Origin: Planctomycetes bacterium syqfu
GTDB taxonomy: Bacteria; Planctomycetota; Phycisphaerae; Phycisphaerales; Phycisphaeraceae
Reading direction: 5' to 3'
NCBI GenBank assembly: GCA_020974905.1
Contig: CP087563.1
Span: forward strand, 2,604,001 to 2,668,000
DNA: 64,000 nt
Shown here piece by piece: positions 35,548 to 46,975 of the stretch. The translations under genes and the position numbers were made by a program. Each line of letters opens with the position of its first letter. Position 1 is the first letter of the stretch. The notes under the pieces are model-generated. The model saw nothing but the letters and a program-made list of their open reading frames with translations, ran no database searches and had not been told where the DNA came from.

Positions 35548-35876
35548 CGGGGTGTTGTGGGTTGCAAGTGTCGATTTACACGATAGTTATATGGCGTGCG
35601 TTAAACGGTGCCGAATTCGGTGACATGGGGCCAAATTCACGTAAAACACAGCAATAAAAGGCGTTGCGGATATTGTCCCATGGTGCCGATTCTACCTGGT
35701 TCGATCCCTGGCCACGACGTTGGGCCGTGTGGCGTTCGGGAGAGTTGGGTGGCCATGGATGCCACTTTGGCAACCAATCGCACGTGTGGCGAGAACGGCC
35801 AAAGGCATGAATGTGATTGACATATCGCAACACACCGATACTATGTGGTTACGTTTTGTCAATTGAAAGCCCAAGC

Positions 35877-36467
35877 GTGGATACTGCCCAAATCATCAAT
35901 CTGATCAAGCAACGCAAGGTTGTCCGGGCCCAGGACGTGGAGGAAATCGGGGCCAACCGCACGATGCTGCCCTACCTTGCCAACAAGGGGATTCTACGTC
36001 GCATTGCTCGCGGGGCTTATGCCCTTGCAGACTATGTGCCTGAGCATGAATCCTTTGTTGAAGTGGCTACGGCGGTTCCGCACGGGGTGATCTGCCTGCT
36101 CTCTGCACTCCAGTTCCACGAAATCACCACGCAGATGCCATGGGAGACCTGGCTGGCGATTGAGCGGGGCAAACGCATTCCTGCTACCGGCCAAATTTCG
36201 CTGCGGATCATTAAGCTCAGCGGCGATGCCTTCACTGAAGGAATCGAGGAACACCGCCAAGATGGCGTGACCATCCGGGTGTACTCGCCTGCCAAAACCG
36301 TGGCTGATTGTTTCAAGTTCCGCAACCGGATCGGCCTGGATGTTGCTCGGGAAGCCCTCATCGACACACTGGCCAGCAAGAAAGCGACACGTGATGAGAT
36401 CTGGCAGTATGCCCAAATCTGCCGCATGGCACGAATCATGCGCCCCTATCTGGAGATGGTGAAGTGA
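35877..36467 (+). CDS. abiEi: AbiEi-type antitoxin (type IV toxin-antitoxin)
   Basis: Start choice is uncertain: GTG 35877, TTG 35856 or TTG 35817 are in frame and none has a strong ribosome binding site. The N-terminus is a winged helix of the AbiEi kind (RAQDVEEIGANRTMLPYLANKGILRRIARGAYAL), and the rest is the AbiEi C-terminal domain (LLSALQFHEITTQMP, IRVYSPAKTVADCFKFRN). It would repress its own promoter and counteract the toxin. The stop overlaps the abiEii start by 4 bases (GTGA), the usual arrangement. It lies just right of repeat copy E. Confidence 0.85.
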   Translation: MDTAQIINLIKQRKVVRAQDVEEIGANRTMLPYLANKGILRRIARGAYALADYVPEHESFVEVATAVPHGVICLLSALQFHEITTQMPWETWLAIERGKRIPATGQISLRIIKLSGDAFTEGIEEHRQDGVTIRVYSPAKTVADCFKFRNRIGLDVAREALIDTLASKKATRDEIWQYAQICRMARIMRPYLEMVK

Positions 36468-37336
36468 CGCCCAAGAACATAGCCCAGTCGATTCACCAAC
36501 GGCTGCTGAACATCCGCGATCAAACCGGCGAACCTTTCAATCATCTGCTCATGCGGTACGGTTTGGAACGCCTGCTATATCGACTCCAGATTTCAGGGCA
36601 TGGCAATACCTTCGTGCTCAAAGGTGCCATGCTGCTCTCCCTCTGGCAAGACGTACCTAAACGTCCCACGCGCGACATTGACCTGCTGGGGCTTGGTGAT
36701 CTGACACATGAGCGGTTGCGATCAATCTTCACCGACGCATGCAACACAGAAGTGATCGACGATGGGCTGCGTTTCGATGCTGATTCGATCCAAACGGACG
36801 ATATCCGGGACGAACAGGAATATCATGGTGTACGCATCCGGCTTCTGGGCTTCCTCGGCCCGGCTCGACTCCCCATTCAAATTGATGTCGGGTTTGGCGA
36901 TGCGTTGATTCCCAAACCGCAGCACATCACCTATCCTACCATCCTGGATTTCCCTGCACCACAGTTGCGTGCCTATCATCCTGCTTCCGTCATTGCTGAA
37001 AAAGTCAATGCGATGGTTGTCCTGGGCGTTTTCAACAGCCGGATGAAAGATTTCTACGACATGTACGTGATCTTGCAGCATATGCCCATGGACGATGAAA
37101 TGCTCAAGACAGCCATCCAGGCCACTTTCAACCGGCGCAAGGTTCCCTTGCCCGACAAAACGCCAGTCGCGTTTACGGCTGATTTTCTCAAAGACGCAGA
37201 CAAGCAAAAGCAATGGCAAACCTTTCTGAATCGAAGCGTTCAAGCTAATTTTGATCTGCCATTGGCCGAAGTTCTTGCCTATCTGAAGGATCGGATCTGG
37301 CCCATTTTAGAAGCTTGTCATGAAAACCATGGGTAA
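36464..37336 (+). CDS. abiEii: AbiEii-type nucleotidyltransferase toxin
   Basis: GTG 36464 overlaps the antitoxin stop. The 290-residue protein has the DUF1814/AbiEii nucleotidyltransferase marks: VLKGAMLLSLW with TRDIDLLGLG (metal-binding Asp pair, about 52-75), QIDVGFGD (about 140) and IAEKVNAMV..GVFNSRMKDFYDMY (about 183-208), which supplies the conserved Lys and Asp. Toxins of this family transfer nucleotides, in studied cases to tRNA acceptor ends, and stop growth or block phages. It opens the defence island at 35.8-47 kb. Confidence 0.88.
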   Translation: MTPKNIAQSIHQRLLNIRDQTGEPFNHLLMRYGLERLLYRLQISGHGNTFVLKGAMLLSLWQDVPKRPTRDIDLLGLGDLTHERLRSIFTDACNTEVIDDGLRFDADSIQTDDIRDEQEYHGVRIRLLGFLGPARLPIQIDVGFGDALIPKPQHITYPTILDFPAPQLRAYHPASVIAEKVNAMVVLGVFNSRMKDFYDMYVILQHMPMDDEMLKTAIQATFNRRKVPLPDKTPVAFTADFLKDADKQKQWQTFLNRSVQANFDLPLAEVLAYLKDRIWPILEACHENHG

Positions 37337-37735: not shown

Positions 37736-38809
37736 ATGCAGGGAATCAAGCAGGGCCATCCTAACATGGAATTGTACGAAGCAGCTAATAAAATTTTGAT
37801 TAAGACTAGACTGCCTATGCACATCAAGGGCATGGTCCAAGAAATCAATGAATCTTCTCTAGCAAAATTCACAACTACAATGCCTGAAGACGAGCTTGAC
37901 CAAGCACTAAACGAACGATCTTATTTGTCTGACAACAAAAGAAACAAACTCTCTAAACTGTTTTACAAGCCATCTTCACATATCTACGGTGCGATTGAAT
38001 GCATACCAGACAATCCGGGGAAGGGGGTTTATGAACTTTTAAGAAGCATATACTTAAACCATACGAATGAATCTGAGAATTCTATTTTAAGCATTGTTGA
38101 CAACATCCTCAAAGCCGAAGGAGATGTCATTGAAACGTTTCAAGAGAGCATACTTTTATATTTAACCAGACGATTAATTTTATTTACCATCAGCAAAGAT
38201 CGCTATATCAGAAAAAACAAAATACAAGACCCCAGCTTTCTACGAAAAAATGTCTTGTCATTTTTATGCACAAAGACGAATATTGACAGTGCACACCACG
38301 GATTATTACTTGAATTGCTCTTAAAAACACCTGCAGCCAAAAGAAAAGATGTCCCACAGTCATTAAAACGCAGATTATTCAACAAAGCCAAGGATACAAA
38401 TCTCAACTGCTACTTGTGTGGACGGGAGTTGGATTATGTAAACTCTGACAGAGAAAACTCAGCTATTATTGAGCACATTTGGCCCCATGCCTTAGGAGGA
38501 GCAAGCATTGAATCAAACCTGAAAATATCATGCGATAAATGCTCGCAAAAAAAAGAAACTTATCTTGATGCTCCTGACATGCATTATGAAAACATATGTT
38601 TAATAACTGATGAAACCGATCCTCACTTTATTTGCGAACTAAACCATCGTCGAAGATTAACTTTATTATCAAAAAACCAAAACAAGTGCTCTATCTGTGA
38701 CACTTCTGCAGACATTGCAGGAACTCTTTTCATAAGCCGTTCTGATCCAGGGGACATACTTCACTATTTTAATTCAACCACTGCTTGCAACCAACACAGG
38801 AGACAATAA
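37736..38809 (+). CDS. HNH endonuclease with an N-terminal HARE-HTH-like domain
   Basis: The 357-residue protein begins with a helical domain (about 11-75) matching the HARE-HTH pattern (ELYEAANKILIKTRLPMHIK, MPEDELDQALNE), a domain known from restriction and chromatin proteins. A helical middle follows. The HNH nuclease has Cys225/Cys228, IIEHIWPHALGG (His247, His251), Asn261 and Cys266/Cys269, forming a zinc-stabilised beta-beta-alpha-metal site. A second zinc knuckle (Cys318, Cys321, Cys351, His354) ends the protein. The DGQHR gene starts one base after the stop. Beside a phosphorothioation system it may be the restriction partner or a type IV-like nuclease. The start could also be ATG 37766. 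Confidence 0.75.
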   Translation: MQGIKQGHPNMELYEAANKILIKTRLPMHIKGMVQEINESSLAKFTTTMPEDELDQALNERSYLSDNKRNKLSKLFYKPSSHIYGAIECIPDNPGKGVYELLRSIYLNHTNESENSILSIVDNILKAEGDVIETFQESILLYLTRRLILFTISKDRYIRKNKIQDPSFLRKNVLSFLCTKTNIDSAHHGLLLELLLKTPAAKRKDVPQSLKRRLFNKAKDTNLNCYLCGRELDYVNSDRENSAIIEHIWPHALGGASIESNLKISCDKCSQKKETYLDAPDMHYENICLITDETDPHFICELNHRRRLTLLSKNQNKCSICDTSADIAGTLFISRSDPGDILHYFNSTTACNQHRRQ

Positions 38810-38810
38810 C

Positions 38811-39938
38811 ATGATACGCAAATACGAAGGCATTTTTGTCAAACAGCGAGATGACAAACATTCGCCTGTATGCTTCGCATTTTATGCTGATGCAAAGGAG
38901 GTACTTGAATGGACTTCTATCAAACGCATCTCAGAGGATCCAGATGGTATTCAGAGAATCTTGCGTGAATCACGTATCAAGGCAATAAGCCGTTTCTTTT
39001 CGTCTTGCCCCATTAACATTATTCCCAACAATGTACTTATCGCATTTGATGCTGGTTGCGTAAAATCAAGCAAAAAAAAGAAGGCATCCATTCAGTCAAA
39101 GAAAGTTTCATCTGGCCATATCGAATTTGACGATGATGATGCATCAATTTCACTAGTTGATGGTCAACACCGATTGTTTGGCATGGCTAGGTATGACGAC
39201 GAATCACTACCGGTATTAGTAGTGGCACTATTAGAAGTCGACAAACTTGAACAAGCCTTTCAATTCGTGGTTGTTAATAACAAGGCAGTTAAAGTCCCTA
39301 CGACTGACGTCAAATCTATTGTCGCCGAAAACTTAGACGAAGAGGCATTAATTGATCGATTGATGGGAGCAGGAGTAAATTACGGCAAGCACTCTCCTAT
39401 GCTCAAAGAAATTAACGATCTCAGCAGTAGTCCTTTCATGCATCTACTTGATTGGGTATTCAATCGTGATGGCAACAAGGTTGTTTCAGTCACAGCAATT
39501 GAACAATCAATAAAATATTTGAGAGACTCGTTCAGCCAATTAAAAGATGATGATGACTCAGCTTTTGAGCTATACTGTGCAATTTGGCGAGCAGTGAAAG
39601 AGACCTATGAGTCTTCTTGGGGAAATCCTGAATCTTACTTAATGAAAAAAGTTTCAATCAACGCTTTTAACCAGTGGCTTGTTGACAGAATTAAAATGAT
39701 ATACGAAATGGGCTTTATCGATATCTTTACAACCAACCAAGTTTATGAACAGGTAAAATCAACTGTGTCACAAATTCCTGAAGATTTTTGGCTAACCGAA
39801 TGGCAAGTCAAAGTTCAAGATAATGCAAACATACGCGACATGATTAAAGACGACATTAGCCAGATAATACAAAACAGAAAGCGATCTGGATCCAGATGGG
39901 ACAGTGATTTAGAATTGCTACCAAACACATCGGACTAG
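38811..39938 (+). CDS. DGQHR-domain protein (DndB paralogue)
   Basis: The 375-residue protein carries LVDGQHRLFGMARYDD near residue 115, the motif that names the DGQHR family including DndB. The helix VVVNNKAVKVPTTDVKSIVAE follows, as in that family. It has low overall similarity to the DndB at 43812-44906. It is translated right after the HNH nuclease and ends 13 bases from the convergent end of dndE. DndB proteins bind DNA and adjust phosphorothioation genes; this one may guide or restrain the HNH nuclease. That role is inference. Confidence 0.8.
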   Translation: MIRKYEGIFVKQRDDKHSPVCFAFYADAKEVLEWTSIKRISEDPDGIQRILRESRIKAISRFFSSCPINIIPNNVLIAFDAGCVKSSKKKKASIQSKKVSSGHIEFDDDDASISLVDGQHRLFGMARYDDESLPVLVVALLEVDKLEQAFQFVVVNNKAVKVPTTDVKSIVAENLDEEALIDRLMGAGVNYGKHSPMLKEINDLSSSPFMHLLDWVFNRDGNKVVSVTAIEQSIKYLRDSFSQLKDDDDSAFELYCAIWRAVKETYESSWGNPESYLMKKVSINAFNQWLVDRIKMIYEMGFIDIFTTNQVYEQVKSTVSQIPEDFWLTEWQVKVQDNANIRDMIKDDISQIIQNRKRSGSRWDSDLELLPNTSD

Positions 39939-39951
39939 CAACCGCGTCTAA

Positions 39952-40293
39952 CTACTGAATAAAATGCGAAGCAAGCATCCCAATCCCCCTGTGTAAATGC
40001 AATTTAAACATTTGCATCAGATCAGCTTGGGACCTGTTTTTACATTCAATCTGATATCGATTTATTATTAATGCCATATATATTTCATGATGCTCTCCAC
40101 CAAAAGTTCGCCAAGTCATTTCAACGTTACTATCAAGTGGTATCGCTGCTGACGGAGGAGGTGTATCATCAGCCAGCGACAAACATAGCGCCCAACGGCA
40201 TAAAACATTCCAATGTTCAATTCCAGTTTTCTGTTTTACAGCAATTAACTGCCGCTTAGCTTTTTCTGAAATACGTACTGTTTCAATACTCAT
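39952..40293 (-). CDS. dndE: DNA sulfur modification protein DndE
   Basis: The 113-residue protein fits DndE in length and sequence: ISEKAKRQLIAVKQKTGIEHWNVLCRWALCLSL, then MTWRTFGGEHHEIYMALI near residue 60. DndE is a small helical protein that binds nicked DNA and is needed for sulfur placement. Its ATG overlaps the dndD stop by 4 bases (ATGA), so it is last in the dndBCDE operon. Confidence 0.93.
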   Translation of the reverse strand: MSIETVRISEKAKRQLIAVKQKTGIEHWNVLCRWALCLSLADDTPPPSAAIPLDSNVEMTWRTFGGEHHEIYMALIINRYQIECKNRSQADLMQMFKLHLHRGIGMLASHFIQ

Positions 40294-42263
40294 TGAAAAT
40301 ACCCCTCTACGACCTGCGTGCTCCTGCGTTCTTCATCATAGGAAATTGTGTATTCACTACGCGTATATTTACTGACCTGTGAATAATACTCATCTACGAT
40401 TTCTTCATCAGTAGAAAGAAGAATAACCTGGTGAGCTGCATATGGGAAATAGCGTCGAACCAAATGATCTCGATGACTCGAATCAAGCCTCCCCATTGGC
40501 GTGTCAATGATAACTGGAATAGGACGGCTTGATGCTTTCTGTAATCCCCAGAAAATAGCAATAGCTAAAAGTTGACGCTCTCCTGCAGAAAGTTTTTCGG
40601 CAGGAATCACTTTGCCTTCTCTGTTCGTAAGAATAATGGCAAAAGATGATGCTTCAATATTTAAACGATGGATTAGCGACTTCTTTTTGATGAGGTGTTG
40701 AAAACTTTCAAGAATGTACAATTCGAGCTTTCCAAGGTGTTTTGATAGAAGCTGAACGCGAAATTCCTTAAGATACTCCTGCGCTTTTAGGCTGTAGATT
40801 ACCGTTCGTTGCTCGTCTTCATACTGAGCAGTTTCCTGAGCCGATTCTCCAAGTAGCCGAACGACGCGCTCCTTAAGCTGATCAGATTTTGTTCGCAATT
40901 GATCAAGCAATTCTTGTTTAGTCTGAACCTCCAGTTCAAGTTTAGATAAAATTGAAAGTGAATCGCGTCTCTGCACAAACAATGATTTCAGATCACCCTT
41001 TTCTGGCGTTGCGTCCAGCTGTGCATTTAACGATATCAGGCGTTTATCTAACTCTGCCTGCTGCTTTTTCAGTTCTTTATAATGGGATTCTGTCTTAGGA
41101 AGCGATTTCAGTGTTGCTTCTAACAGGGTGATTACACTAGATGGCATATCTAAATAAATTGAGACCCCGTGAAGTTTTTTGTCGATTCGCTTGTTTTCTA
41201 AAACCGCAAGTTGAGACAAAGCCTCTAATACCTGATCAGAAGCACCTGTTTTTTCAGCAGCCTTGACGTACTTCCCGTGGAGGCGCTCCATTTGCTGCTT
41301 TTGCTGGATACAGGCCAAAGCGTCTTTTTCTTTACGAGCCTGTTTTCTGATCTGTCGGAGTTGATCTTTAACCAAATGCAGAGGAAGTATGCCAGATTCT
41401 TCCTTAATGATTTGCTTCTTAATTTCATCAAGCTGCTTTTCTAATTCTCTTTTTAGAACTTCATTAGTAGCTTGTTCATCGAGTAAGTTGCCACCCTTTG
41501 ACTCATATTCAGAACTAACTATTTCCAGCCGTTTTTGTTCTTCCTTTATCTGCTTGCGAAGCATAATTAAATGCTCTTCTGTATGGCAAACCTGTTTTTG
41601 AACAGTTGAGTATTCGTCTTCGCATTCTTTTAATTTTTGAGTTTCTGTCTGCGTTTTGTTTTGAAGAGATTTATTTCTGTTCAGAGTAACTAGATCTCTC
41701 TGCAATTGATCAATGATTCCAATTCCTAGTAATCCAGTAATGGCGGATTCCAGAAATTCTTGTGCAGTTTCTGGACGAACAAGATTCTCTATCTGCTCTC
41801 CATCAAAAAAGAACAATGTGGAAAGGCGAGCTGGCAGTATTGAATCGATAAATTTGTCCCAAGTCGCAGTAATTGTTTGATCCAAGATGTCATTGACGAA
41901 TACATCTTTCCGCTCTTGGATACCTTTTCCAGTTGAACGCCAGCAAAACTCTACTCGGAAATTTGCATCATTTCCGTTATAGGGATGCTGAAAACTAAGC
42001 TTAATACGTGCCTCTTCTTTAGAAGATGAGTCGCGATTTATCCATGCCCTGAGATATTCATCCCAACGTTGATCTGCTCGACGATAGCTATTCGAACGTT
42101 TACCATACAAGCAAATCTGCATGGCATCGAGAATCGTGGTTTTTCCTCCACCGTTATGACCACCGATTAATAAAATAGGCTTTGTTTTATTGGTACTCAA
42201 ATCAATATCGTGAGTACCTTTATACTGCCCGAAATTTTGCAGTGTTAATTGATGAAAAATCAT
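40290..42263 (-). CDS. dndD: DNA sulfur modification protein DndD (SMC-like ATPase)
   Basis: The 657-residue protein has a Walker A loop GGHNGGGKTT (34-43), a long coiled coil (about 190-500), the signature LSAGERQLLAIAIFWGL and Walker B IPVIIDTPMGRLD. It is an SbcC/SMC-type ATPase that is thought to open or nick DNA for DndC-dependent sulfur exchange. It starts 5 bases after the dndC stop and overlaps dndE. All motifs look intact. Confidence 0.95.
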   Translation of the reverse strand: MIFHQLTLQNFGQYKGTHDIDLSTNKTKPILLIGGHNGGGKTTILDAMQICLYGKRSNSYRRADQRWDEYLRAWINRDSSSKEEARIKLSFQHPYNGNDANFRVEFCWRSTGKGIQERKDVFVNDILDQTITATWDKFIDSILPARLSTLFFFDGEQIENLVRPETAQEFLESAITGLLGIGIIDQLQRDLVTLNRNKSLQNKTQTETQKLKECEDEYSTVQKQVCHTEEHLIMLRKQIKEEQKRLEIVSSEYESKGGNLLDEQATNEVLKRELEKQLDEIKKQIIKEESGILPLHLVKDQLRQIRKQARKEKDALACIQQKQQMERLHGKYVKAAEKTGASDQVLEALSQLAVLENKRIDKKLHGVSIYLDMPSSVITLLEATLKSLPKTESHYKELKKQQAELDKRLISLNAQLDATPEKGDLKSLFVQRRDSLSILSKLELEVQTKQELLDQLRTKSDQLKERVVRLLGESAQETAQYEDEQRTVIYSLKAQEYLKEFRVQLLSKHLGKLELYILESFQHLIKKKSLIHRLNIEASSFAIILTNREGKVIPAEKLSAGERQLLAIAIFWGLQKASSRPIPVIIDTPMGRLDSSHRDHLVRRYFPYAAHQVILLSTDEEIVDEYYSQVSKYTRSEYTISYDEERRSTQVVEGYFQ

Positions 42264-42268
42264 GGAAC

Positions 42269-43822
42269 TTAGTCAATTTCTATTTTCAGTTGAATATATT
42301 CGTCGGCAGTACGATCCCATTCATCAACTTTGTCCTGCTTGAACTGCTGTTGTGACCGTGCATAGTTAAGTGCATCCTCTTCATCCTCATAGAAGTTGCG
42401 TTTAATTGAGTTTTCCAGATTCTTCATCAGATTGCTTCGACGAACCTGCGTGGATTCTTTCAACTCCACATTGATCAAGTCTCTGACCAGTTGATAGTGA
42501 TTTCCACAAACTTCTTCTAAAATCTTCAGGTCATCACGATCAAATGGCTGGTTGCCTCGAATTTCTTTTCCAGGATATGACTCGCCAATTTCTTCTTCGT
42601 AGATTCCCGGCAAAGAATCTTCTATTTCATGCTTATCCATAACCCAAATTCGTCGGATTTCTTCCAGCTCATCCAATGTGATTAAATTGATTTGCCTAAC
42701 GTGATCCGGCCCTTCATCATGAATAAATCGTTGTGCAGCAAGCAACATTCGAAGAAATCGCTCACGCACTTCCTTCTTGTATGGACCTGGAATATATTTC
42801 ATTTTGTCGCCAAACAATTGAACACGTCCGTTCATGCGGCGAAAATCACGGAGGCTTCGATCACTCTCTTCCATATCGAATTGACGGTAGTCAATCGCTT
42901 TTCGTATCTCAAGTAAGGGAAGCATCCACTCCTTGTCCGCATCGTTTTGTATCATGGCTGTCATTGATTTGTCTTCGTCCACCAATGTACATGTCCAACA
43001 ACCAAAACGACTATCGCCACAGCTAGGTGTACTTGTATCAACAACCAGAGGACATTCCCCTCCCTCAGTTGCTCCCGAGTACAAACCTAGCAATTCCTGA
43101 TTGCTGTACCCCCATGGATTGGAGTATTGATTCAAAAAAAGCCATACATCATCATTAGCCCAGTCTTGAATAGGAGTATAAACCCATGTGTTGGGAAGCT
43201 GACTGTTTGGACTAACCTTGTGACCAGCTTCAAGATCCCCATACCGATGTTCTTTTGATCGTTCTTCTTCGTAATGCTGCATGGTAGCGGCACGTTTTGC
43301 GCTTTCTTTTTTACGCGTGCCAAGACAAAGTAGAACATTTCCGTGTTTCTGTGTCGTATTCAAAATAAATTCATTTGATGGCCAGATTTTTAATCGTTCA
43401 GTACACCATCGGAATTTGGGGCGAGGAGCCGGATAACCTTTACCAATAAGGTTCGTCCAAAAACTATTTTCTGGTTTAGGTTTGAGCTGATGGGGTTGGA
43501 ATGGAAGCTGATCTTCTTTCGCCTGTTTCTTCATACATGCAAGTGAACCTGCCACCCACTGTGCTACGATAGGGTTTTCGACCAATGTATCGGTGGTTAT
43601 AACATGAACAGTTTTGTGTTGCTGTGATTTGGGCAAAGAAGCAATTGCCATCCAAACTAATTGAAGCACGGCTGTTGAATCTTTCCCGCCACTATACCCA
43701 ATGACCCATGGCACATCATCCGCCAAGTAGAGGTTGGATATTTCAGAAAGCAAAGTCGTTATATGTTTTTTAATTCCAGATACTGCAAACGCAGAATCAG
43801 AAGCTGTTTTCTTAGTTGCCAT
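42269..43822 (-). CDS. dndC: DNA sulfur modification protein DndC (PAPS-reductase-like)
   Basis: The 517-residue protein has the PP-loop SGGKDS (44-49) of the adenine nucleotide alpha-hydrolase superfamily. A cysteine group in CGDSRFGCWTCTLVDED fits the [4Fe-4S] cluster of DndC. It uses ATP to activate the DNA backbone and takes sulfur from DndA. Its start overlaps the end of dndB by 11 bases, and dndD follows after 5 bases. The motif set looks active. Confidence 0.95.
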   Translation of the reverse strand: MATKKTASDSAFAVSGIKKHITTLLSEISNLYLADDVPWVIGYSGGKDSTAVLQLVWMAIASLPKSQQHKTVHVITTDTLVENPIVAQWVAGSLACMKKQAKEDQLPFQPHQLKPKPENSFWTNLIGKGYPAPRPKFRWCTERLKIWPSNEFILNTTQKHGNVLLCLGTRKKESAKRAATMQHYEEERSKEHRYGDLEAGHKVSPNSQLPNTWVYTPIQDWANDDVWLFLNQYSNPWGYSNQELLGLYSGATEGGECPLVVDTSTPSCGDSRFGCWTCTLVDEDKSMTAMIQNDADKEWMLPLLEIRKAIDYRQFDMEESDRSLRDFRRMNGRVQLFGDKMKYIPGPYKKEVRERFLRMLLAAQRFIHDEGPDHVRQINLITLDELEEIRRIWVMDKHEIEDSLPGIYEEEIGESYPGKEIRGNQPFDRDDLKILEEVCGNHYQLVRDLINVELKESTQVRRSNLMKNLENSIKRNFYEDEEDALNYARSQQQFKQDKVDEWDRTADEYIQLKIEID

Positions 43823-44906
43823 TGTGACCCTTCAGAAATGCTTTTTCAGCTTTTAGCTCTTCAGGCGTAAGATCAAGCCCAAGATTCGTCTTTATGTAAT
43901 TTGATGTGAGTACCACATTGTTAGCAGCTTTGTGGATCATCCCCCCGACTAATGTTCGCCCTTCCCAAACAGTGCTATTGGATCGCGCCCAATCAATTGA
44001 ACTGAGCTTCTTAAGCTTAGTTTGCCATCTTTTAGGGTGGTTCTTGATTAAGGTATTCCCTGCAATTCCCAGTGCATGAAGTGCAATGCTATGAGAATGA
44101 ATATAATCTCCTCTCACCTCACCAGCGGTAAGCCTGTTTTCATTAACGAGTTTCCATTCTTTAAGCTGATTGGCAGTTGACTCCCAAAACTTAACACCAA
44201 GCTCAACAAGTGATTCCCCATCGCCATCATTATTTTTTAAAAGAGCTTTTGTAGCCGAATACAGAGCACTCAGTGTAAATAACTTCCTTGAACGTGGTGA
44301 AAGAGAGCTTTTTTCCATTTCAACAACATTTTTGAAAAAATCAGAACGTGCAATGATTTCTTTAGTGAGTAGTGAGAAATCATCCCGGTAATCATAAAGA
44401 ATGCCCAAGGATTTAGAGGGGCGAATTGCGTAACGGTTTAAATCAGAAAACATTTGCTGACACCGCTTCAAATCGGCATCGATAAAAAAGACAACCGCAA
44501 TCGTCTCATTGGCAAAATCCGGATTTTCTTTGAGCGCTTCTTCAATAGCAGCTCGGCGGTGCTGGCCATCGTTAATCACAAACGTAGCATCCATGGAGAT
44601 TCGTAGCGTTCCCATACGATTCTCTGCTTCGCTGTACGGCTTAAATTGCACCTCTCCATCAATAGATGCTGTAATTGCCGAAAAAACATAGGTATCCAAA
44701 TTATCCAGGATATAACGCTTCATCTCTGGAATGCGGTTTGCGTTCAGCCTTCTTTGGGCTCGCATTTCCGCTGGGATATCTGCCTCATCGAAAAGGAACA
44801 TGCGTGGCAAGAGTCGAATTGGACACATAGAAATGTAGTACTCCTGCTTTGCTTGAACACCTTTTATGGCGGGGAATACGTATTCAAATGAGTAATCATC
44901 TGCCAT
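43812..44906 (-). CDS. dndB: DNA sulfur modification protein DndB (regulator)
   Basis: The start at ATG 44906 has AAGGA 7 bases upstream and gives 364 residues, the usual DndB length; longer frames upstream have no family similarity and run into dndA on the other strand. The DGQHR motif is in TFVINDGQHRRAAIEEAL. DndB acts as a repressor and tunes the level of phosphorothioation. It is first in dndBCDE and divergent from dndA with a 69-base gap. Confidence 0.93.
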   Translation of the reverse strand: MADDYSFEYVFPAIKGVQAKQEYYISMCPIRLLPRMFLFDEADIPAEMRAQRRLNANRIPEMKRYILDNLDTYVFSAITASIDGEVQFKPYSEAENRMGTLRISMDATFVINDGQHRRAAIEEALKENPDFANETIAVVFFIDADLKRCQQMFSDLNRYAIRPSKSLGILYDYRDDFSLLTKEIIARSDFFKNVVEMEKSSLSPRSRKLFTLSALYSATKALLKNNDGDGESLVELGVKFWESTANQLKEWKLVNENRLTAGEVRGDYIHSHSIALHALGIAGNTLIKNHPKRWQTKLKKLSSIDWARSNSTVWEGRTLVGGMIHKAANNVVLTSNYIKTNLGLDLTPEELKAEKAFLKGHNGN

Positions 44907-44975
44907 CCGACTTTCCTTATCACTGAGCGTCATGTAGAATACAGCATTGTTTGTTTCTCGGCAACCAAACAGTTT
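44907..44975. promoter_or_regulatory. Divergent dndB/dndA control region
   Basis: Only 69 bases separate the two start codons, so promoters for both directions and any DndB-type operator must lie within it and the adjacent coding starts. It contains the ribosome binding site AAGGA for dndB. I do not see an obvious palindrome. Confidence 0.5.
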
Positions 44976-46136
44976 GTGAAAACATCCAAACAGGCTTTTG
45001 ATGTGACTGAATATCTTGACTGTAATGCAACAACACCGGTTGAACCGGAAGTGGCTGAAATTGTAAGGTTTTACACCGAACAAGAGTTCGGCAACGCTGG
45101 AAGTCGAACACACGAATTTGGGGCTAGAGCCAAACAAGCAGTCTTGGAAGCTCGCCAGAAGGTAGCAGAGCTCATACCCGACATTGATTCCTCTGATGTT
45201 GTTTTTACATCTGGAGCCACCGAATCCAACAACATTGCCATTTTGGGTTTGTTGAACTGGGCTCAAAAGAACGGCAGAAGTCACATCATTACCACGGCTG
45301 TCGAACACAAGGCTGTGCTAGAGCCCATTGCTTTTGCAGAATCACGGGGGTTTGAAGTAACTCGTATCTCGCCATCTGGATCTGGTGCGATTGATGCTTC
45401 TGCTGTATCTGAGGCTATACGTGATGACACATTCTTGATCTCAGTCATGCATGTGAACAACGAAACCGGAATTATCCAACCCATTGACGAGATTGCCGAG
45501 GCATTGCCTCAAGCTGGCTGCTACTTTCATGTGGATGCTGCCCAAGGATATGGCAAGGAAATTGAGAAGCTCGCACACTCCCGCATTGACCTGATTAGCA
45601 TTAGCGGGCACAAAATCTATGCCCCTAAGGGAATAGGTGCTCTCATCATACGCCGGCGAAAATTCAAACGGGCACCGTTGGCCCCCATCCTTTTTGGTGG
45701 TGGCCAGGAACGCGGACTACGCCCTGGAACGCTGCCGGTACCGCTAATCTGCGGCCTCGGCAAAGCAGCCGAACTCTGCCAGCAAAACCAATCCTCACGG
45801 GCCAAGACCAATCTGGCTTTCCGACAAATGCTCTACAAAGCTTTAGAAGGCTTGGACTATAAATTAAACGGTGACGAATCCTTATCTGTTCCCAATGCCG
45901 TGAGTCTGTCTTTTCCGGGTATTAATTCCGAAGCCCTCATGCTTGCACTAAAAGGAATTGTTGCCATTTCAAATGGTTCAGCCTGTACATCGCAAAGCTA
46001 CGAGTCCAGTTACGTCCTAAAAGCGATGGGATTGCCCGATGACCGCATTCATTCCGCTATTCGCATTTCGTGGTGCCACATGACAAATGAGCCTGATTGG
46101 CACGCTTTTCACCAAGCAATAGCATCCTTGGCATAG
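44976..46136 (+). CDS. dndA: DndA cysteine desulfurase
   Basis: The GTG start at 44976 gives 386 residues. Family marks are YLDCNATTPVEPEV, HVNNETGIIQP, SGHKIYAPKGIGAL with the PLP-binding Lys near 203, and NGSACTSQSY with the active Cys near 327. DndA passes sulfur from cysteine to DndC. In some hosts IscS replaces it; here a dedicated copy is present, divergent from dndBCDE. The Shine-Dalgarno is weak, so a GTG 9 codons further in is possible. Confidence 0.93.
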   Translation: MKTSKQAFDVTEYLDCNATTPVEPEVAEIVRFYTEQEFGNAGSRTHEFGARAKQAVLEARQKVAELIPDIDSSDVVFTSGATESNNIAILGLLNWAQKNGRSHIITTAVEHKAVLEPIAFAESRGFEVTRISPSGSGAIDASAVSEAIRDDTFLISVMHVNNETGIIQPIDEIAEALPQAGCYFHVDAAQGYGKEIEKLAHSRIDLISISGHKIYAPKGIGALIIRRRKFKRAPLAPILFGGGQERGLRPGTLPVPLICGLGKAAELCQQNQSSRAKTNLAFRQMLYKALEGLDYKLNGDESLSVPNAVSLSFPGINSEALMLALKGIVAISNGSACTSQSYESSYVLKAMGLPDDRIHSAIRISWCHMTNEPDWHAFHQAIASLA

Positions 46137-46279
46137 CTTGACATCTGTTCAGATGAATGCCAGCAATGTTACTTGACAACTAAACAGGCCATGAAGTCAG
46201 ATATATGTAGTGAATTGTTCAATTTGAGTACTCTGGATTCTTATACCAGCAATGTTCATTTAATTGTCAAGGAGGACAG

Positions 46280-46975
46280 ATGAGCCAGAACCATGCATCC
46301 ACTATTGCTAAAGGCCACATCCATATTCTAGACAAAAATCATGATCTTTCATTTATCAAGGAAAGCCTCAAAACATTTACTGATTCATCCCCACGTTGGC
46401 AATTCGAGGAAAAACTAACCCAAACATATTCTAATGATGTCAAAGACATTGCTGTGGTGATAATGAACATCGATGAATTTCCGGGTGTTTGTATTTACTT
46501 AGCCAAGCCAGTAACACCATCCAAGTCAATAACAATGAGATCTTTCAACATCCTACCAGTTACTGGTAGACTTTCAGCAGAAGAAATCAACCAGATTTTC
46601 GGCTTATTTACCAAGAATTTCAGACAGTATAACAAAAAGCATTCAATACGTTTAAAATGCTCATTAGTGATCCCAAAAATCAAACCCATACCAACATCAC
46701 TTGAACAAATAATCCCTGGCAAACGAACCCGTAAATATTTTCAAGGCATGTTTGTTACTTTGTATCCCAGACCTCATTGGTTTACTCATCCATCTGACAT
46801 TGAACGTTTCAATACTTTTGTATGCTTAGCCCATCGATGGAAAGCCAAAATCCACCGTGATGGTCTAAAACAATGGCTGATCCGTGAACAAAACTGGCCA
46901 TTAAACGATGCTGAATATCTGATTGAACGGCTAGATATCGGATTACAGACCCTCAAAGCAAGGCTTGCCATATGA
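46280..46975 (+). CDS. Unknown protein next to dndA
   Basis: AAGGAGG lies 6 bases before ATG 46280, so the gene is real. The 231-residue product has no motif I recognise and no signal or membrane segment. It looks soluble, mixed alpha/beta, with a basic middle (about 110-155: KKHSIRLKCSLVIPKIKP, GKRTRKYFQG) that could bind nucleic acid. It follows dndA by 143 bases on the same strand and is as AT-rich as the Dnd genes, so it belongs to the island. The upstream gap has a repeated CCAGCAATGTT (46159 and 46249). Confidence 0.7.
   Translation: MSQNHASTIAKGHIHILDKNHDLSFIKESLKTFTDSSPRWQFEEKLTQTYSNDVKDIAVVIMNIDEFPGVCIYLAKPVTPSKSITMRSFNILPVTGRLSAEEINQIFGLFTKNFRQYNKKHSIRLKCSLVIPKIKPIPTSLEQIIPGKRTRKYFQGMFVTLYPRPHWFTHPSDIERFNTFVCLAHRWKAKIHRDGLKQWLIREQNWPLNDAEYLIERLDIGLQTLKARLAI

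Follow-up and report, generated by a model that had tools for sequence, protein, structure and literature searches.

What acts as the restriction partner of a phosphorothioation (PT) locus that lacks dndFGH? The question is raised by a 64,000-nucleotide stretch (the window) of contig CP087563.1 from Planctomycetes bacterium syqfu, whose genome is a single contig of 7.38 Mb and 95.78% complete. Here the modification genes dndABCDE adjoin a two-gene unit that encodes an HNH nuclease followed by a protein of the DGQHR domain family, and dndFGH are not annotated anywhere in the window, as an earlier note on this DNA had also stated. The pair is most plausibly, at somewhat better than even probability, a split two-subunit restriction effector resembling GmrSD, SspE and DndI, serving here as the PT partner in place of dndFGH. 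Such a unit appears to be an interchangeable restriction accessory, able to combine with self marks of more than one kind.

HNH-DGQHR pairs make up a genuine family, conserved as a tightly spaced unit. One genome from each of 84,980 species was scanned with an alignment of the window DGQHR protein and three relatives, and DGQHR relatives were encoded at 117 loci, the best 80 of which were kept. Thirteen of these have E-values of 5e-31 or better, the next being 6e-19, and all 13 have an HNH gene directly upstream; no HNH matching those of the pairs was found at the other 67. Of the 13, four (L018-L021) adjoin dnd genes and nine (L022-L030) adjoin dpd genes, which specify the 7-deazaguanine system. 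Plasmid searches returned 25 records with a DGQHR match, and the six examined added a dnd-linked pair in Pseudomonas aeruginosa (L013), with the same convergent layout as in the window, and a dpd-linked pair in Agrobacterium vitis, in which an IS5 element disrupts the DGQHR gene. With L021, which is apparently the same assembly as a same-genus genome (G003), counted once, there are 16 non-redundant adjacent pairs including that of the window, six beside dnd and ten beside dpd; none of the 16 lacks a DNA-modification system alongside. These counts rest on one scan seeded with four pairs and on plasmid searches, of which two used DGQHR and three used HNH proteins. In the 15 loci other than the window, the nearest modification-system gene is 7 to 1822 bases from the pair, counting queC and the dpd restriction genes among such genes; the HNH gene of L019 is cut by the contig end, and dpdD/J/K alone are in view in L022. 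At 12 of 12 loci, a DGQHR start codon occurs within the range from -16 to +15 bases relative to the HNH stop.

The earlier note had suggested that the pair could be a module that reads or avoids PT DNA and had proposed a search for it beside other dnd or ssp loci. The pair does recur beside dnd, in six of the 16 cases with the window included, but the larger share beside dpd, which counts against the idea by the note's own criterion, leads us to reject a PT-specific module, though every pair adjoins some DNA-modification system. Neither the pair nor its sharing by dnd and dpd was found described in the literature covered, which was partial, so that an earlier description is possible.

In a small test, tblastn of three pair HNH proteins against plasmids returned the Pseudomonas and Agrobacterium pairs and one Shinella HNH fragment only. 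The fragment (Shinella zoogloeoides NZ_CP131131.1, 385666-386025) matches residues 1 to 127 of a pair HNH at 49% identity and lies in a dpd locus without a paired DGQHR gene; it is possibly a decayed pair. A phage-borne pair found no support: a scan of viral contigs with the DGQHR alignment gave at least 29 loci, with a best E-value of 8e-14 among the matches listed, far weaker than those of the paired genome loci, and three phage records match partly, none covering more than 78% of the query.

The DGQHR protein passes the domain family model TIGR03187 (113.7 bits, cut-off 58.85) and is just above the cut-off of PF14072 (30.6 bits, cut-off 29.1). It fails the DpdB model NF041060 (93.8 bits, cut-off 300) and DGQHR_dnd_1 (TIGR04172; 43.9 bits, cut-off 450), and no match to the DndB equivalog TIGR03233 is listed for it up to an E-value of 1. 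DpdB is its best match in PADLOC (94.4 bits), as it is for 14 of 14 relatives. Its best families are TIGR03187 and, below cut-off, DpdB, and it falls in a clade apart from DndB; its earlier description as a DndB paralogue is not supported if a close one is meant. The motifs QR (48-49), DGQHR (117-121) and FxxxN (152-156, with F152 and N156) are all present, and they recur throughout the pair DGQHR proteins (QR in 14 of 14, DGQHR and FxxxN in 15 of 15). The protein thereby carries the QR, DGQ(Q/H)R, FxxxN set of SspE, DndI and GmrSD, the set given for GmrS (PMC4619093). The best solved matches of its AlphaFold2 model (predicted local distance difference test, pLDDT, 81) are ParB (Z 6.8) and sulfiredoxin (Z 6.1); the GmrSD enzyme BrxU matches with Z 4.8 over 225 residues and SspE with Z 2.7, and plain Foldseek E-values are weak, the best being 0.037. 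It is fair to infer that the protein acts as a sensor or brake.

The HNH protein passes two Pfam cut-offs, those of HNH_5 (PF14279; 33.0 bits, cut-off 27.5) and HNH (PF01844; 23.7 bits, cut-off 21.4), and HNH families are matched by profile in all 13 pair HNH proteins scanned. The core (residues 225-279) has its nearest folds in McrA (Foldseek E 4e-3) and in the HNH domains of Cas9 and IscB. Residues C225, C228, H247, N261, C266 and C269 are unchanged in every one of the 15 pair HNH proteins aligned. The third metal-site position, 270, is Asn in 12 of the 15, Gln in two and Ser in the window alone (Pontiellaceae B1224, which has both the pair and dnd genes, carries Asn there), so that the window protein, which keeps H247 and N261, does not have the complete His-Asn-Asn/His catalytic triad. 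H54, N68 and N77 are reported to be critical in a Geobacter HNH enzyme (PMC4619093), and these were matched to the window residues by us from a profile alignment. Because Ser270 replaces the residue that corresponds to N77, the window enzyme may be weak, dead or unusual. The C-terminal part has a second Cys/His site (C318, C321, C351, H354), judged by eye from the alignment to be present in eight of 16 pair HNHs. Residues ~285-357 match the zinc-finger/HNH folds of a retron, PtuB, Cap5 and DotN (Z 5.0-6.8) and, with low confidence at pLDDT 42-83, may form a second treble-clef without the HNH motif.

The nuclease had also been credited with a HARE-HTH-like domain linking it to modified DNA. The nuclease assignment stands on the HNH profiles, with the imperfection at Ser270, and the HARE-HTH does not: in the N-terminal ~90 amino acids the match to PF05066 (residues 13-58) is sub-threshold (15.8 bits, cut-off 25.9; E 0.019), it is seen in one of the 13 pair HNH proteins scanned, and the HNH of the same-genus locus L021 has no corresponding N-terminal part. 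Residues 1-91 are modelled with pLDDT below 50, and residues 1-95 have no match to PDB sequences at E-values up to 10. A HARE-HTH mark reader is accordingly rejected as a feature of the family. An SRA or sulfur-binding domain (SBD), as in SBD-SRA-HNH enzymes of the ScoMcrA type, has no Pfam match in the window HNH up to an E-value of 1.

The pair behaves as an exchangeable cassette, because the congener L021 keeps nearly the same dndA to dndD and has a far diverged pair in the opposite orientation. DndA (91.5%), DndB (96.2%), DndC (97.9%) and DndD (92.5%) are nearly identical to those of the window and DndE is 76.1% identical, whereas the HNH and DGQHR proteins share 33.7% and 37.7% identity; the window pair converges on dndE, and that of L021 lies downstream of dndE and co-directional with it. 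Nucleotide identity between the two loci is 98-100% where dndD begins, then drops to ~80% and reaches background at the 3' end of dndE. Between L020 and L021, pair (76%) and dnd genes (67-76% identical) are about equally diverged. The pair is itself co-inherited: over 15 pairs the HNH and DGQHR distances correlate with r 0.951, a value reached in none of 10000 permutations, although shared ancestry alone also raises r. The dnd-linked pair of L013 groups with the dpd-linked pairs and has in common with them a C-terminal part without the second Cys/His site. A single dnd clade is rejected by the joint HNH and DGQHR tree (approximately unbiased test, p-AU 0.0026) and is not rejected by DGQHR alone (p-AU 0.053). 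At least two switches between dnd and dpd are likely, if not certain since L013 sits on a long branch.

The association of DGQHR proteins with HNH proteins extends to a reversed arrangement, found at eight loci (L031, L033, L034, L041, L043, L049, L053 and L058), in which a longer DGQHR protein precedes another HNH protein. Seven of these eight HNH proteins pass a Pfam HNH cut-off, the exception being that of L058; six of the loci are flagged as dpd, L033 has a dpdH match and L034 has neither. A quick tree built from 45 DGQHR proteins joins those of the pairs (14 rows; Shimodaira-Hasegawa-like approximate likelihood ratio test 95) and six of the reversed ones (96) as sister groups (99), separate from DndB, from DpdB and from two further branches. 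The HNH-linked branch always has an HNH partner in the loci examined, in either gene order, and other branches have other partners, of ~300 or ~200 amino acids in the two further branches, between which long branches meet in the tree. As tree groups agree with partner type, the branch to which a DGQHR protein belongs tends to match its partner.

In one of these further branches a DGQHR protein of ~330 amino acids is followed by the ~300-amino-acid protein, at L064 (8923-10809), L065 (8956-10882), L076 (4860-8139, interrupted by a transposase-like gene), L083 (3401-5342), L015 (7929-9799) and L016 (8010-9939). Four of these six loci are beside dnd, and the two partner proteins that were scanned match no Pfam family over cut-off. 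In the other, a DGQHR protein of ~420 amino acids is preceded by the ~200-amino-acid protein, at L057 (420-2311), L061 (8246-10101) and L099 (18524-20427). This partner looks membrane-spanning by eye in L057 and L061, and in Aliivibrio (L099) the unit lies between dndE and dptHGF.

Other candidate effectors were also looked for in this genome. The view that dndFGH do not lie elsewhere in the genome holds for DndH and DndF: neither the DndH model TIGR03237 nor an Aliivibrio DndF protein found a match there, the control plasmid and the protein's own plasmid being matched, with DndG outside the search. The HKD-helicase-like protein of L021 (its own genome serving as positive control) and DpdA (control plasmid matched) were likewise not detected. 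Searches with TIGR03238 and for an SRA-domain nuclease gave no match and, having no responding control, are uninformative. The pair is thus the sole effector candidate observed beside the dnd genes of this bacterium, whose genome may encode others.

By analogy with DndI, whose ATPase activity and dissociation from self-DNA are stimulated by PT (PMC11662687), the pair may work as a split sensor and nuclease. The DGQHR subunit, with its putative ParB/sulfiredoxin-like fold and its QR, DGQHR and FxxxN nucleotide-site motifs, would bind DNA and nucleotide, sense the self state of the DNA or of the modification machine acting on it, and gate the HNH subunit, which would nick or cut DNA that lacks the host mark. 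For DndI, DNA damage or filamentation is reported in cells without the mark. The two proteins would then be the split counterpart of the one-chain enzymes SspE, DndI and GmrSD, which join a ParB-type NTPase to an HNH domain, and in the window genome they would act as the restriction partner of PT in place of dndFGH. We infer complex formation, use of nucleoside triphosphates, mark sensing, DNA cutting and defence from these likenesses. A restriction module coupled to host modification is the best reading because the unit is conserved and tight, recurs beside dnd, and stands in a genome where dndH and dndF were not detected; to this extent the earlier proposal of a new restriction module survives, shorn of its PT-specificity and of the HARE-HTH link.

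Several observations weigh against a split restriction effector. The pair is rare, with a full-length DGQHR match in one of 392 genomes of the phylum (490 bits, the next being 89); among 151 relatives, HNH matches occur in three (one of them weak, E 7.8e-4) and DGQHR matches in five. The fold Z-scores of the DGQHR model are all below 8 and may reflect no more than a common arrangement, the match to BrxU has an rmsd (root-mean-square deviation) of 7.9, and neither protein of the window pair has a Pfam match to DUF262 or DUF1524 up to an E-value of 1. Ser270 could weaken or abolish cutting by the window HNH. The genome also encodes one GmrSD-family protein ~440 kb away (contig position 3,105,109), which is unrelated to the pair and, at 1e-3, matches a single PDB sequence, that of a DUF262 protein. 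Finally, most pair-bearing dpd loci also carry the restriction genes dpdD/J/K, and L018, L020 and L021 carry a CxC-ATPase/HKD-helicase-like set adjoining the pair; the pair therefore need not be the sole effector. Each of these sets (L018 3314-8176, L020 10169-14987, L021 10219-15001) consists of a second DndD-like ABC ATPase, a 150-amino-acid DndE-like neighbour and a ~700-amino-acid protein, and by layout resembles the CxC-ATPase/HKD-helicase sets of PMC10853773.

That one family accompanies two chemistries admits two explanations, which we propose as alternatives: either the sensor has adapted to each mark, or it is the modification machine that is read. DndB and DpdB form the one homologous family known to be common to Dnd and Dpd systems. 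On the second explanation the pair could be a restriction plug-in independent of the chemistry of the mark. Its DGQHR subunit would dock on DndB or DpdB, its paralogue in the host system, and so respond to the modification machine and not to one chemical group; we regard this as possible but less likely than not. Among dnd-linked pairs, the five for which the whole operon can be seen (window, L013, L018, L020 and L021) all have dndB, compared with 51% of dnd taxa (PMC10853773), a hint of such docking from small numbers. If it occurs, DGQHR proteins would be general adaptors that link modification systems to interchangeable effectors.

Sensing of the machine would also ease a different explanation, in which the pair is a backup suicide effector that, instead of reading marks on DNA, fires on the cell's own DNA when a phage blocks modification, guarding Dnd or Dpd rather than restricting incoming DNA. 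One family serving two chemistries is easier to understand if the machine is sensed, the presence of dpdD/J/K or HKD-helicase effectors alongside the pair at many loci suggests a second layer, and Rakesh et al. propose such roles for Dnd-linked nucleases (PMC10853773). The suicide roles in that study fall mainly to standalone nucleases at the borders of systems, however, whereas the pair nuclease has a conserved sensor-like partner, and we consider this explanation unlikely though not negligible.

Even if the family restricts DNA, the window copy could have lost some or all of its catalytic activity and persist as a remnant that is decaying or only binds DNA. Ser270, in place of an Asn that profile alignment equates with the critical N77 of Geobacter (PMC4619093), and the long branch (1.78) of the window HNH in the HNH tree point that way. 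Such decay is nevertheless doubtful, given that both reading frames are intact, all other HNH core residues are kept, the motifs of the partner DGQHR protein are all intact and two dpd members have Gln at position 270.

It is more improbable that the pair is a regulatory or helper module without restriction, in which the DGQHR protein would be a DndB- or DpdB-like regulator and the HNH protein would nick DNA to help place or repair the mark. DGQHR proteins do include DndB, a repressor (PMC4507180, PMC12704722), and the pair adjoins modification genes rather than dndFGH. The dnd and dpd systems generally do without it, as the single pair-bearing genome in the phylum illustrates, and its exchange for a 34-38% identical version beside nearly unchanged dnd genes better fits an effector under diversifying selection. 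The minimal Dnd and Dpd gene sets are not known to include the pair. Least probable of all is a Type IV-like enzyme that cuts foreign DNA bearing a mark other than the host's own: the nearest HNH folds include the modification-dependent McrA, and modified DNA is the substrate of GmrSD, which comes closest to the pair in function (PMC4619093), but the McrA-like similarity is common to the HNHs of Cas9 and IscB, and the association of all 16 pairs with host modification systems would be left unexplained.

The PT gene cluster beside the pair is intact. All five Dnd proteins score above the NCBIfam curated cut-offs, and the motifs HK and SACTS (DndA), SGGKD (DndC), GHNGGGKT and DTP (DndD) and QR, DGQHR and FxxxN (DndB) read through in the proteins, which confirms dndA and dndBCDE as first described. 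The coordinates also agree with the description of a two-gene unit, its members separated by one base (the DGQHR gene starting after the HNH stop), that converges on dndE, with 13 bases between the DGQHR stop and the end of dndE.

Table 1. The HNH-DGQHR pair and the PT genes in the window.
Feature	Position	Strand	Evidence
HNH nuclease gene of the pair, 357 aa	37736..38809	+	Pfam profiles, column conservation, fold matches
DGQHR protein gene of the pair, 375 aa	38811..39938	+	TIGR03187, PF14072, AlphaFold2 model fold matches
dndE	39952..40293	-	TIGR03184, 116.5 bits (cut-off 71.85)
dndD, ABC ATPase	40290..42263	-	TIGR03185, 553 bits (cut-off 245.85)
dndC, PP-loop sulfurtransferase	42269..43822	-	TIGR03183, 625.1 bits (cut-off 290.4)
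dndB, true DndB	43812..44906	-	TIGR03233, 521.7 bits (cut-off 328); start taken as 44906
dndA, cysteine desulfurase, divergent from dndB	44976..46136	+	TIGR03235, 504 bits (cut-off 480)

By G+C content the pair and dndBCDE together resemble an imported island: the 37-45 kb block has 38-43%, against 46-57% in the flanks on either side (28-37 kb, 47-56 kb). Most of dndA falls in the 45-46 kb bin, at 49%. Immediately before the HNH gene, on its upstream side, lies an AbiEi/AbiEii type IV toxin-antitoxin pair (35817-37336, + strand; PADLOC 257.9 and 342.7 bits), where G+C at 36-37 kb is 56%, above that of the dnd block. Downstream of dndA, a 231-amino-acid protein (46280-46975, + strand) has low G+C like the island; it matches nothing in Pfam or PADLOC and, by phmmer, nothing in loci L001-L097. 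The window DndD scores higher with the PADLOC 2.0 PbeC model (633.6 bits) than with the DndD model (611.7 bits). Automatic labels around such loci can therefore mislead, giving PbeC for a canonical DndD and DpdB for the DGQHR protein of the pair; the latter mislabels its putative sensor subunit and is a warning for automatic annotation.

The usual view is that each restriction effector serves a single kind of mark, and the pair family stands beside both backbone sulfur and base-exchange marks. Exchanging pairs between the two systems would directly address the means by which self is recognised, and the pair is a candidate effector for PT loci without dndFGH. The family may also explain some of the surplus dpdB copies and isolated HNH genes in dpd islands. 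For these islands 801 additional dpdB copies are reported, as are HNH endonucleases in the islands of LW23 (L049 here) and Hydrococcus that lack the restriction operon (PMC11888242); in the available parts of that study these genes were not found described as a two-gene unit or tied to dnd.

Among known systems, SspE and DndI place a ParB-family NTPase-type domain and an HNH nuclease beside PT genes without need of dndFGH (for DndI, PMC11662687), as the pair would do with its putative NTPase-like subunit. They differ in being one chain with DUF262 and DUF1524, whereas the pair is two genes with the HNH first, combines DGQHR/TIGR03187 with HNH_5/PF01844 and has relatives beside dpd as well. GmrS and GmrD of the Type IV GmrSD/BrxU enzymes can be two genes, and share with the pair the QR, DGQ(Q/H)R and FxxxN motifs (PMC4619093); their ParB/sulfiredoxin (Srx) fold with an HNH has a putative counterpart in the pair. 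The pair differs in having no DUF262 or DUF1524 match, in its link to host modification and in its order, nuclease then NTPase-type protein.

DndB (TIGR03233) belongs to the same DGQHR domain family (PF14072), but the DGQHR protein of the pair has no TIGR03233 match, forms a separate clade and coexists with a true dndB in the same locus. DpdB (NF041060), the ParB-like ATPase of 7-deazaguanine systems, is the best PADLOC match of the pair DGQHR proteins, yet these form a separate clade, the window protein falls far short of the DpdB cut-off, and nine of ten dpd loci have their own DpdB copies besides the pair, the L022 stretch showing neither dpdA nor dpdB. Nucleases described from Dnd neighbourhoods comprise wHTH/SBD-SRA-HNH, HARE-HTH-REase, HKD-helicase and HNH types (PMC10853773). 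Like the pair, these include HNH proteins beside dnd modification genes, often without DndFGH; the pair differs in having no SRA or SBD match and a sub-threshold HARE, and its HNH-DGQHR pairing and sharing with dpd were not found in the accessible portions of that account (PMC10853773).

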